DNA of 64,000 nt. Origin: Fimbriimonas ginsengisoli Gsoil 348 (GTDB lineage Bacteria; Armatimonadota; Fimbriimonadia; Fimbriimonadales; Fimbriimonadaceae). The notes beneath the pieces were generated by a model, which saw only the letters and a program-made list of their open reading frames with translations, was not told the DNA's origin and did no database searches. Positions 23,717-50,420 of the stretch are shown here, piece after piece. The position numbers and the translations under genes were made by a program. How positions within the stretch are numbered: position 1 is the first letter of the stretch; each line of letters opens with the position of its first letter. The stretch spans positions 1,550,001 to 1,614,000 of the forward strand of contig NZ_CP007139.1 in NCBI RefSeq assembly GCF_000724625.1, written 5' to 3'.

Positions 23717-24172
23717 ATGCCGCAATCTCTGGCCGCCGTCTACATCCACGTCGTTTTCTCGACGGCGGACCGTAGACCTTTCCTAAAGGATCCGAAATTA
23801 CGCGCCGAGCTTCACTCCTACCTGGGAGGATCCTCGAACGCCCTTGGGTGTGCCTCTCTCGTGGTCGGAGGCGTCGAAGATCACGTCCATGTGTTGGCGC
23901 GTCAGTCGCGCACGATCTCGTTATCCGACTGGGTGAGGAAGGTGAAGACGAGTTCCTCCCAATGGCTCAAACGTCAGGACGCGTCGTTGAGCACCTTTGC
24001 TTGGCAATCTGGCTACGGTGCGTTTTCGGTGGGGAGTAAAGGGGTGGAGCTGGTCAGGGGCTACATTCAGAACCAGGAGGAGCATCACCGCCACTTCTCG
24101 TTTCAAGACGAGTTTCTCCAACTTCTGAAGGAGCACGGGTTGGAGTGGGACGAGCGATATTTGTGGGATTGA
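23717..24172 (+). CDS. REP-associated (IS200/IS605-like) Y1 transposase
   Basis: The 151-aa product has the fold markers of Y1-type HUH transposases: AAVYIHVVFSTADRRPF at the N-terminus, GVEDHVHVLARQ (the HUH metal-binding pair, about residues 54-65) and QSGYGAFSVG followed by VRGYIQNQEEHH, where the Tyr of GYIQNQ (about residue 117) is the nucleophile. Such RAYT proteins process single-stranded DNA hairpins and are thought to spread REP elements. It lies in the middle of an inverted field of REP-like units on both sides, as expected. It is probably intact. Confidence 0.92.
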   Translation: MPQSLAAVYIHVVFSTADRRPFLKDPKLRAELHSYLGGSSNALGCASLVVGGVEDHVHVLARQSRTISLSDWVRKVKTSSSQWLKRQDASLSTFAWQSGYGAFSVGSKGVELVRGYIQNQEEHHRHFSFQDEFLQLLKEHGLEWDERYLWD

Positions 24173-31318: not shown

Positions 31319-32272
31319 TTACCAGCCGCGCTCGGCGAGACGTTGCTGGTCGGTGAGGTCGCCGCAGTTGATCCCGACCATCGGCTGGCCGAGCCCTTTG
31401 CTGATCTCGGCGAGCCGCTTCGGCTCCTTATAGAACAGCACCGAGTTGACGATGGCGGTCGCGCGGCGGGCGTGCTCTCGGGACGCTTCGGCACCATCGA
31501 GGTTCGGAGCCGACTTGAAGATTCCGGATCCGACGAACACCGTCTCGGCGCCGAGCTGCATCATCAGGGCGGCGTCGGCCGGGGTGGCAATTCCGCCGGC
31601 GGAGAAGTTCGGGACCGGAAGCTTGCCAAGCATGTGGACCTCGCGAATCAGCTCGTAGGGCGCCTGGTGCTCCTTCGCCAGCACGAACAGCTCATCCTCG
31701 CGGGCGTTCTGAACCTGCCGGATCTGCGACATGATCGTGCGCATGTGGCGAACGGCTTCCACGACGTCGCCGGTGCCTGCCTCGCCCTTCGTGCGGATCA
31801 TCGCCGCGCCCTCGGCGCAACGCCGGAGCGCCTCGCCCAGATTTTTCGCACCGCAAACGAACGGGACGGTGAACGCGTGCTTGTCGACGTGGTTCGACAC
31901 ATCCGCCGGAGTTAGGACTTCGCTCTCGTCGATAAAGTCGACTTCGAGCGCCTCGAGGATCTGCGCTTCGGCGAAGTGGCCGATGCGGCACTTGGCCATC
32001 ACCGGGATGGTGACCGCGGCCTTGATCCCTTCGATCATCTCGGGGTCGCTCATGCGGGCGACGCCACCGTCGCGGCGGATGTCGGCCGGCACTCGTTCCA
32101 GTGCCATGACGGCGACGGCGCCCGCGTCCTCGGCGATTCGCGCCTGCTCGGGGGTGACGACGTCCATAATGACGCCGCCCTTCAGCATCTCGGCAAGGCC
32201 GACCTTTTCTCTCCAGGTCTTCTTCGCGCCCGCGAACCCGCCGTCGATAAGATTGCTCACTTCTCGTATCAC
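31319..32272 (-). CDS. pdxS: Pyridoxal 5'-phosphate synthase subunit PdxS
   Basis: PdxS makes pyridoxal phosphate from ribose 5-phosphate, glyceraldehyde 3-phosphate and ammonia, in a 12-mer that receives ammonia from PdxT. The 317-aa product includes [35 protein letters not shown] (residues 32-66), [34 protein letters not shown] with the catalytic Lys, and a C-terminus [11 protein letters not shown]. Homologues start within a few residues of the K[15 protein letters not shown] segment, so the first 20 residues could be a little too long. No pdxT is next to it. It converges with fabG, with 4 bases between the stops. Confidence 0.96.
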
Positions 32273-32406
32273 CTCTCCCTAAAGGGTACCAGCCGGGCAG
32301 TCGGCGACCCGGAACAGGTGACCCCATATTCGTAGGAATCAGCCCCCTTCCTTACTCGTAATCGGTGGGCTGATCTGTACCTCGCCCGTGGATGCGGTCA
32401 GGCCCA

Positions 32407-32663: not shown

Positions 32664-32736
32664 TTTCACCCGTAGCCCGTGGCTTTAGCCACGATTCAAG
32701 GTTCTACCGGGGATAAATCCTCGGGCTACGGGTGAA
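32664..32736. repeat. Inverted 'TTCACCCGTAGCCCG' repeat with mini-hairpin
   Basis: TTCACCCGTAGCCCG (about 32664-32678) is repeated inversely as CGGGCTACGGGTGAA (32722-32736), and a direct copy begins at about 32605. Between the arms sits CGTGGCT-TT-AGCCACG (32678-32693), a hairpin with the same CT-NN-AG closing as the arrays at 48172 and 50322. Confidence 0.75.
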
Positions 32737-32859
32737 CCTACTATTTGTTGGTGGCCATAATCCCCGGGGCTACGGCAAGCCAAGCAAGGAAATGTAAAGC
32801 CAATTTGTGAATGACCATGTGTGTCACGGACTATTCACTTGATCGGCCCCAGGCCTCCC

Positions 32860-48171: not shown

Positions 48172-48272
48172 AGGAGCGCGAACTTCAGTTCGCTTGCGGA
48201 GTCGACTTTAGTCGGCCCCCCGGTCGCGGGCTAAAGCCTGGCGACGCAAGCCGGCTGAAGCCGGCGCTCCAT
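48172..48272. repeat. Array of four CT-NN-AG mini-hairpins, array 1
   Basis: In order: GCGAACT-TC-AGTTCGC (48178-48193), CGACT-TT-AGTCG (48203-48214), GGCT-AA-AGCC (48228-48237) and GCCGGCT-GA-AGCCGGC (48250-48265). All stems close with CT/AG around a two-base loop. GGAGCGC and GCGCTCC flank the array as inverse ends. No gene lies in 48126-48322. Confidence 0.85.
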
Positions 48273-48322
48273 TGGCGAGGAACGAACACCGCCCCTGCCC
48301 TCCGGGTATGGTGCCGAAAGCC

Positions 48323-49537
48323 ATGAGCCAGGGGCCTCTCGCAAATATCGCAAAGATCGTCGACGCGCGCAGCAAGCGCATCTCCAGCTACGACCGCAAC
48401 GGCGGGAATGGAGACCTGATCCCGATTCCTCAGGGGGAGACGGTGACGATCGCCGAGATGTCGGGCGCGGGCATCGTCAAGCACATCTGGATCACGATCG
48501 GCAGCAAAGACGACCTCATCCGCCGGAATCTGGTTCTGCGGATGTATTGGGACGGGCAAGCGCACCCGAGCGTCGAATCGCCGATCGGCGAGTTCTTCGG
48601 CCAAGGCTGGGGGATGAAATACAACTTCATCTCGCCGCCGGTCTCGGCCGCGCCGGCGAACGGCAACGCCCTCGTCTGCTACTTCCCGATGCCGTACGGC
48701 AATGGCGCGCGGATCACGGTGGAGAACCAGGGCTCTTGCGATCTCGACCATTTCTACTATTACGTGGATTACGAAGAGCACCCGAGCATCCCAGCCGATA
48801 TGGGGCGGTTCCACGCTTGGTACCACCAAGAGCTGACCCAGCCGGAGGGGCAGACCGACAACGTCGGCCTCGGCGGCGATGTGGAAAACGAATGGTCCGT
48901 CTTTGGCGGCTTCCCGAATAACCCGACCGATAAGAACAACTATCTCTTCGCAGAAATAGAGGGAACCGGCCACTACGTCGGGGTCAACTACTACATCAAC
49001 TCGCCGTCGCCGATTTGGTACGGCGAGGGAGACGACATGTTCATGGTCGACGGCGAGGCGTGGCCAGGTTCCGCCCACGGCACCGGGACCGAGGATTACT
49101 TCAACCAGAGTTGGTGCCCCGACGAGCACTACCTCCACCCATACTTCGGCACCGCCCGCGCCCCGGGCCGCAATAACGATTCCCCCCGCTTCGGCTGGCT
49201 CGGCCGTACCCACTGCTACCGGTACCACCTTGAGGACCCGATCCGGTTCAAGAAATCGCTCCGCGCCAGCATCGAGCACGGCCACGCCAACTGCCTCACG
49301 CTAGACCTCGCCAGCGTCGCCTACTGGTACCAGACCTTGCCCTCCAAGCCGTTCCCGCCCCTGCCGCCGGTCGCCGACCGGGTCCCCCGCCCGGAGATCA
49401 CCGCCGTCGACGTCCACCGCTGGCGCCACGAATGGCGCATGAATCGGGGCGGCGGCAAACTGTTCGGCACCGAACATCCCCCTCGCCAGCCGGACGCAGA
49501 GAAGGTCGTCGAAGAAAACGCCGACCCAGAAGCGTAA
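48323..49537 (+). CDS. DUF2961/GH172-like glycoside hydrolase
   Basis: The 404-aa product matches DUF2961, whose characterised members (GH172) act on D-arabinofuranosyl or D-fructofuranosyl linkages with a jelly-roll fold. Typical stretches are SSYDRNGGNGDLIPIPQGE (about residues 17-35), GAGIVKHIWITI, SPIGEFFGQGWG (the family's EFFG motif), NALVCYFPMPY and HGTGTEDYFNQSW, where the GTEDYF segment holds acidic catalytic residues. No signal peptide is seen. ATG 48323 is preferred over ATG 48308, from which no ribosome site is visible. The substrate is unknown. Confidence 0.88.
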   Translation: MSQGPLANIAKIVDARSKRISSYDRNGGNGDLIPIPQGETVTIAEMSGAGIVKHIWITIGSKDDLIRRNLVLRMYWDGQAHPSVESPIGEFFGQGWGMKYNFISPPVSAAPANGNALVCYFPMPYGNGARITVENQGSCDLDHFYYYVDYEEHPSIPADMGRFHAWYHQELTQPEGQTDNVGLGGDVENEWSVFGGFPNNPTDKNNYLFAEIEGTGHYVGVNYYINSPSPIWYGEGDDMFMVDGEAWPGSAHGTGTEDYFNQSWCPDEHYLHPYFGTARAPGRNNDSPRFGWLGRTHCYRYHLEDPIRFKKSLRASIEHGHANCLTLDLASVAYWYQTLPSKPFPPLPPVADRVPRPEITAVDVHRWRHEWRMNRGGGKLFGTEHPPRQPDAEKVVEENADPEA

Positions 49538-49680
49538 GCCGCTTTGGGAGTGCGCGAAGCCCTTCGCGCTTTCCCCCTGCGCGGAGCGCGTTCCCAACCG
49601 CGGCGCGGGCGCAGGCCATGAAATGGCGCGCTTCTATCCCGAAGGGATTTCGTCCCCCAACGAAGGGTTGCGAAGCACGA

Positions 49681-49960
49681 GCTACCCTGGTACCGTCAGC
49701 CGCCAAATTTCTACCCTAACGGGGTAATGCCATCCAGTTTTCGAACGAACCTTCCGTCCGGAGTTAACACAAAGGCGCCAAGGCACAGAGACACAAAGAT
49801 CGTGTCGGCGTTTGCCCCACCGGCATGTCCAGTAGCCAGAACCTCCGTGCCTTCGTGTCTCTGTGCCTCTGTGTTTGTATTCTCCGAGGGTTCGCCAGGG
49901 CAAAAACTGGGTGGCATTACCCCGTTGGGGTAGAAGCCGAAACGGCTGGCACCAGGGTAG
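49681..49960. repeat. 280-bp nested inverted repeat without a gene
   Basis: The outer arms (49681-49741 and 49901-49960, about 60 bases each) share GCTACCCTGG, CTACCC.AACGGGGTAATGCCA and CCAGTTTT in inverse order. The inner arms (49766-49798 and 49845-49877) are GGCACAGAGACACAAAG-type sequences. Inside and around it only short chance frames are found. The rest of 49538-50506 holds the array at 50322 and no gene. Confidence 0.85.
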
Positions 49961-50321
49961 GACGCCGCTACGCGGCTTACCAATCCTAGTAAGTTAAATG
50001 GCGGACCCGTCGGGATTGTGTCCGCGTGCTTTACACCCTGAAGTTAAGCTTCGCAGCGAAGAGTGCGGTACCCGGCGGCGTTCTGCGTGTTCGCATAGCA
50101 CCCTTGGAAGCCCCGCCGTTTCTTTTGCACGGAGCGACGGGGGCGTTCCGGTTCCTTGAAAACCAGACCTCGCCCCGTCGGCGAAGGCGGAAAATAAAAA
50201 TTACAAAACGAAACGGAGCCATCCGTGGCAAAGGAAAAACCCGTCCCCTCCCAAACTGCTAACCGCCAACTGCCAGCCCTGGGAAAAATTACGAAACGAA
50301 CCCAGCGGGTTGGGAAAGGAG

Positions 50322-50420
50322 CGCCGGCTTGAGCCGGCATGCGCCGTTCGGGCTTTAGCCCGCGACGGGGGTCGACTGAAGTCGAACGCCACATGCGAGC
50401 TAAAGCTCGCGCTCCGGGGC
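50322..50420. repeat. Array of four CT-NN-AG mini-hairpins, array 2
   Basis: In order: GCCGGCT-TG-AGCCGGC (50324-50339), CGGGCT-TT-AGCCCG (50348-50361), TCGACT-GA-AGTCGA (50372-50385) and GCGAGCT-AA-AGCTCGC (50396-50411), flanked by GGAGCGC/GCGCTCC. It has the same layout as array 1 at 48172 but different stems. Confidence 0.85.

Follow-up and report, generated by a model that had tools for sequence, protein, structure and literature searches.

What are the two arrays of short hairpins that lie on either side of a gene for a GH172-like protein in Fimbriimonas ginsengisoli Gsoil 348: a structured RNA tied to that gene, or copies of a repeat with no particular relation to it? They lie in a 64,000-nucleotide stretch of the genome (the window), for which a sequence-only reading had described two arrays of four hairpins each with a common design, having variable stems always closed by CT-NN-AG and GGAGCGC/GCGCTCC caps at their ends. 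The best explanation, to which we assign a probability of roughly 0.88, is that the arrays represent two copies of a mobile DNA repeat, REPIN-like and non-autonomous, which a RAYT (REP-associated tyrosine transposase) moves through single-stranded DNA.

The arrays as copies of a dispersed repeat

All eight hairpins could be located (Table 1), H3 of array 1 having one imperfect (G-T) pair, and the caps proved to be the boundaries of both arrays. The CT-NN-AG pattern also stood out against shuffled sequence: perfect hairpins of this type with at least four further stem pairs number eight in the window versus 1.05 expected (maximum of three in 40 Markov shuffles), and those with at least five further pairs number five versus 0.38, counts that take in related copies and hence show enrichment, not independent origin. 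CT is the commonest of the 16 closing dinucleotides at the longer stem in the window, each of the other 15 occurring at most three times.

Table 1. Positions of the hairpin elements and of two genes in the window
Feature	Position	Strand	Details
Family B GTAG REPIN holding the ninth hairpin	32664..32738	+	75 bp, about 40 genome copies; layout GTAG(32672-32675)-CC-hairpin 32678-32693 ... hairpin 32708-32723-GG-CTAC(32726-32729)
IS200/IS605-family transposase	23717..24169	+	NF033573 55.7 bits, cut-off 55
Four-hairpin element, family A copy 1	48173..48270	+	98 bp, GGAGC/GCTCC ends
H1 of copy 1	48178..48193	+	GCGAACTTCAGTTCGC; inward loop TTCA
H2 of copy 1	48203..48214	+	CGACTTTAGTCG; inward loop TTTA
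H3 of copy 1	48227..48240	-	CGGGCTAAAGCCTG; one G-T pair; inward loop TTTA on - strand
H4 of copy 1	48250..48265	-	GCCGGCTGAAGCCGGC; inward loop TTCA on - strand
GH172-like gene (Pfam DUF2961, PF11175)	48323..49537	+	between family A copies 1 and 2
Four-hairpin element, family A copy 2	50318..50415	-	reverse orientation
H4 of copy 2 (outer hairpin)	50323..50338	+	GCCGGCTTGAGCCGGC; inward loop TTGA
H3 of copy 2 (inner hairpin)	50349..50362	+	CGGGCTTTAGCCCG; inward loop TTTA
H2 of copy 2 (inner hairpin)	50372..50385	-	TCGACTGAAGTCGA; inward loop TTCA
H1 of copy 2 (outer hairpin)	50395..50410	-	GCGAGCTAAAGCTCGC; inward loop TTTA

The common design of the two arrays holds, but not their independence: a whole-genome BLAST search with array 1 recovered array 2 as a reverse-complement match with 83% identity, together with further copies of up to 91% identity. 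Both arrays are copies of one dispersed repeat of about 98 bp, which we term family A. A covariance model built on eight full copies detected nine full and about eight decayed or partial copies across the genome, so that the predicted clustering of such hairpins elsewhere was borne out by a small family of seventeen copies. Each element starts with GGAGC, ends with GCTCC and holds four hairpins within; it matches its own reverse complement, being composed of two inverted units that form one larger hairpin, and the DNA folds of the two window copies have z-scores of -2.8 and -4.0. The flanks are unrelated at every site, the similarity being confined to the ~98 bp between the sharp GGAGC/GCTCC ends. 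By a simple codon-usage gene call, all 17 copies are intergenic, ten of them lying no more than 80 bp from a gene's 3′ end, and they are present in both orientations. No target duplication was found at the copies, and neither an empty site nor a fresh insertion was seen.

With respect to the GH172-like gene, the flanking position of the arrays stands and the relation that it might suggest does not. Orthologs of the gene (71–82% identical) occur in 13 congeners, and in the flanking sequence examined there, at most 1.5 kb to either side, we found neither an array nor any CT-NN-AG hairpin with at least four further pairs; moreover, the other 15 family A copies lie beside other genes. Both observations argue against a functional link, and, since 13 relatives carry the gene without any array, its proximity to the arrays is coincidental. 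They equally speak against a structured RNA specific to this locus (a small RNA, a riboswitch-like or an mRNA-stabilising element) that is kept by selection on RNA folding. Such an RNA would account for the paired stem changes described below, and elements situated just downstream of genes would be transcribed, but the arrays have no Rfam match (the only one over the gathering score in the window is a tRNA), no sigma-70-like promoter was found and no terminator-like site called on them, and the element occurs in both orientations; we consider this alternative highly improbable. A known RNA family was discarded on the lack of an Rfam match, and intrinsic terminators on the lack of a T-run after the hairpins and of any called site. 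Nothing points to a small RNA from the arrays, and the informative line for them is the RAYT link, not small-RNA expression.

The gap between the GH172-like gene and array 2 also holds an inverted repeat, AACACAAAGGCGCCAAGGCACAGAGACACAAAG ... CGTGCCTTCGTGTCTCTGTGCCTCTGTGTTTG, at window positions 49763-49876. At 49580-50000 there are inverted motifs (ACCCTGGTACCGTCAG / ACCAGGGTAGGACGCCGCTACGCGG) resembling the flanks of the IS200-type transposase L023; these motifs probably make up a miniature element enclosing the CACAAAGG repeat.

Stem changes and the TTNA loop

The stems had been said to vary with matching changes on both sides, and this is confirmed by the eight full copies: 98.0% of their stem cells are paired, as against 38% or less after a one-column shift of the partners; in addition, five pairs, four in H1/H4 and one at the foot of H3, are changed on both sides (columns 10/17, 87/98, 88/97, 89/96 and 58/79). 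Cells with both sides changed number 13 versus 4.9 in shuffles, none of 500 being as high. Together with the genome-wide clustering, the pairing and the compensated pairs support the earlier suggestion that it is nucleic-acid structure on which selection or copying acts; the covariation is evidence for a structure and does not demonstrate an RNA. The compensated changes are few and common to several copies, and in several copies the H4 stems are H1-like (GCGAAC, GCGGAC) instead of the commoner GCCGGC; hence, part of the stem changes may stem from arm exchange or quasi-palindrome correction. That the matching changes as such reflect quasi-palindrome correction, by template switching between arms in replication, or whole-arm exchange between the inverted ends, and not selection, appears rather unlikely to us. 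H1-like H4 stems are what arm exchange would give, and compensated changes confined to few columns need few events, but this would explain neither why the TTNA loop is fixed and reads inward nor the RAYT linkage. This alternative bears on nothing but the covariation and leaves room for a REPIN-like element, which might still be mobile.

What stays fixed is the loop. The CT-NN-AG that had been taken as invariant is regular in the window hairpins, but the actual invariant is the loop, which reads TTNA when each end is followed inward. It does so in 31 of the 32 hairpins of the eight aligned copies, the sole exception being a decayed H4; by this polarity, H1 and H2 belong to one strand, H3 and H4 to the other. 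A scan of a genome collection with the pattern GGAGCGCGRRCTTNAGYYCGC matched at least 119 stretches, those listed being mostly from Verrucomicrobiota and also from Chloroflexota, Acidobacteriota, Planctomycetota and Armatimonadota. Of the 91 matches examined, 87 have complementary bases at both free stem pairs, versus 25% by chance. These 91 yielded 31 partner hairpins in other genomes (four elements being counted from both ends), whose loop is unconstrained by the pattern, and 30 of them display TTNA reading inward. Since the pair below the loop varies in the partner hairpins (C-G, G-C, A-T or T-A) while TTNA stays, TTNA is the invariant feature and CT/AG a local preference. Same-polarity tandem hairpins are essentially absent among the 91 elements (the one case is itself a self-complementary loop), and, set against these, the four-hairpin form is seen only in this genus. 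When the surroundings of the 91 matches, on 80 named contigs, were searched for RAYT genes, a single weak and partial match resulted, so that the RAYT link is shown within this genus only.

This loop has a precedent in biochemistry. A group 3 RAYT of Marinomonas cuts, in vitro, REPs with a 5-bp perfect stem; cleavage needs T12, T13 and A15 of the loop, position 14 is free and the stem is barely read, a paired stem being reported as required for the cutting of REPMb (PMC8266576). Thus, the TTNA loop of family A is the loop needed by the Marinomonas enzyme, which points to a RAYT. Nunvar et al. described REPs with TTCA/TTTA loops flanking RAYT genes in H. influenzae, P. putida GB-1, P. entomophila and Thioalkalivibrio, and also listed P. 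putida tags, such as TGTGGGAGCGGG, that include GGAGCG (PMC2817692).

RAYT genes and neighboring repeats

Recognizable four-hairpin elements, with stem sequences different from those of family A, are present in one of 40 relatives, the congener G004, in which the loops of decayed elements were read by eye. There, the same architecture flanks two RAYT genes: one (C66, encoding P0002) has two whole four-hairpin elements upstream and one deleted element downstream, and the other (C58), which has one internal stop, is bracketed in the configuration GGAGTGC-H1-H2-[RAYT]-H3-H4-GCACTCC. Taking the gene out of [tag-H1-H2]-RAYT-[H3-H4-tag] leaves exactly the four-hairpin element, and family A very probably represents a RAYT element in non-autonomous form. 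The same congener also carries four-hairpin elements in head-to-tail tandem ~149 bp apart (L089 and L097 on C14; L091 and L098 on C45).

The Gsoil 348 genome encodes an intact RAYT, P0001 (genome position 31784-32380), with the HUH and Tyr motifs MPNHVH and YIEWNP. On the NCBIfam model REP_Tyr_transpos (NF047646, cut-off 80) it scores 91.4 bits and the G004 RAYT P0002 scores 92.7 bits, the linked enzymes being far below the cut-off of the IS200 model; the best match of P0002 is the solved TnpArep 4er8, and P0001 is sister to the RAYTs of G004 and G019 (support 95/89). P0001 is the closest RAYT in this genome and is bracketed not by family A but by inverted GGAGC double-hairpin units with CGTCCCG loops (family C), of which the genome holds about 33 dispersed copies. 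None of the family A copies in this genome has a RAYT gene beside it, and the enzyme that moved them may have been lost. This absence, like that of target duplications, would suit a repeat spread by ordinary segmental duplication or gene conversion, without a transposase; such a process is nevertheless very unlikely, given that the copies share only the ~98 bp with sharp ends amid unrelated flanks and that in a congener this very design is found around RAYT genes.

Several further transposase-linked repeats came to light. Inverted units of a G-rich tag and a hairpin bracket most RAYT genes of the genus (L104-L126), the loops being of three types that recur, TTNA, TTCCA and GTCCC. One RAYT whose hairpins have CTTCCAG loops (L117, G000:C1:2235689-2236216) sits within an alcohol dehydrogenase-like gene and in frame with it, so that the two make up one 561-aa open frame; this looks like a recent insertion. 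The ninth hairpin that the sequence-only reading had added to the two arrays is exactly as described and of the same loop type, but it belongs to a separate repeat family (B), a canonical GTAG REPIN. This family exactly parallels the Group 3 REPtron Mb of Marinomonas in its succession of GTAG, 2 nt and a hairpin with TTTA (PMC8266576). At L022 and L070 (G000:C1:2310916-2311567) a family B REPIN and an IS200-like transposase gene are ~240 bp apart. The IS200-like transposase of the window has inverted flanking copies of yet another repeat (AGCCCCAACGGGGCG...CAAAGC.AAGGG); as a mover of family A it was rejected, being flanked by a different repeat, AGCCCC..GGGGCG.

Comparison with known systems and a proposed mechanism

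Family A is closest in organization to the REPINs or BIMEs, the inverted REP doublets moved by RAYTs (Bertels and Rainey 2011, PMC3116915): it is likewise a dispersed, extragenic, inverted palindromic pair that is palindromic from end to end, and RAYT genes are bracketed by the same ends, here in a congener. It differs in having two hairpins per end (four in all) versus one, in its small size as a family and in its tag, which is GGAG in all full copies versus the canonical GTAG/GTGG of REPs and REPINs. Given that family A lacks the strict GT[AG]G tag and that the RAYT linkage of its architecture is found only in a congener, we class it as a REPIN variant and not as a strict member. With the Group 3 REPtron Mb (PMC8266576) it shares a short perfect stem of nearly free sequence, the T-T-N-A loop and a tag 5′ of the hairpin, but its GGAG is directly joined to longer stems, its hairpins are in tandem and its cleavage is a prediction. 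The GTAG-tagged REPs of Di Nocera et al. 2013 (PMC3733652) are similar in their short stem-loops, head-to-head dimers and species-specific stems; they are reported from Verrucomicrobia, Chloroflexi and Planctomycetes, and the families are tagged GTAG or CGTC, with no GGAG-tagged TTNA family among them as far as we are aware. In IS200/IS605-derived MITEs, too, an HUH/Y1 enzyme reads subterminal hairpins on one strand, but the enzymes linked here are RAYTs by their profile scores. A full-text literature search returned no paper joining "repetitive extragenic palindromic" with "Armatimonadetes", and the genome paper of strain Gsoil 348 (5,231,762 bp) lists only 12 transposase genes and describes a strain without IS elements, or without known ones (PMC4072686).

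The REPIN-like reading has its observed basis in the dispersed copies, sharp ends, intergenic location, inward polarity, bracketing of congener RAYTs and the intact RAYT relative in this genome; from these we infer the binding, cleavage and transposition of family A by a RAYT, as well as which RAYT served it here. We propose that each end would constitute a double-hairpin REP unit, with a GGAGC tag followed by two same-polarity TTNA-loop hairpins, and that two such units facing each other as an inverted pair would represent an internally deleted form of the RAYT-gene element. When the locus becomes single-stranded, e.g., during replication, each hairpin could fold, and the RAYT, an HUH/Y1 nuclease, would recognize, on just one of the strands, the TTNA loop together with the 5′ GGAG guide; it would cut nearby, and the unit would then be moved or copied, in single-stranded form, to sites between genes. 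The stems would need only to pair, allowing compensated drift, while the loop and tag would stay fixed. Going further, one might tentatively envisage a cross-phylum class of GGAG-tagged TTNA-loop REPINs, whose enzyme reads only the tag, the loop and stem pairing, with double-hairpin ends having evolved in Fimbriimonas, perhaps seating two enzyme subunits per end; we lean somewhat against this broader scenario.

Family A is, then, not a new RNA but a known kind of parasite-like element in an unusual form with four hairpins; it behaves as a REPIN does, its novelty being the GGAG tag and the two hairpins per end. The TTNA rule, known from one Marinomonas enzyme in vitro, gains evidence from natural variation across distant phyla, and the RAYT element with its four-hairpin remnant provides a clear parent-derivative pair in a poorly studied phylum.
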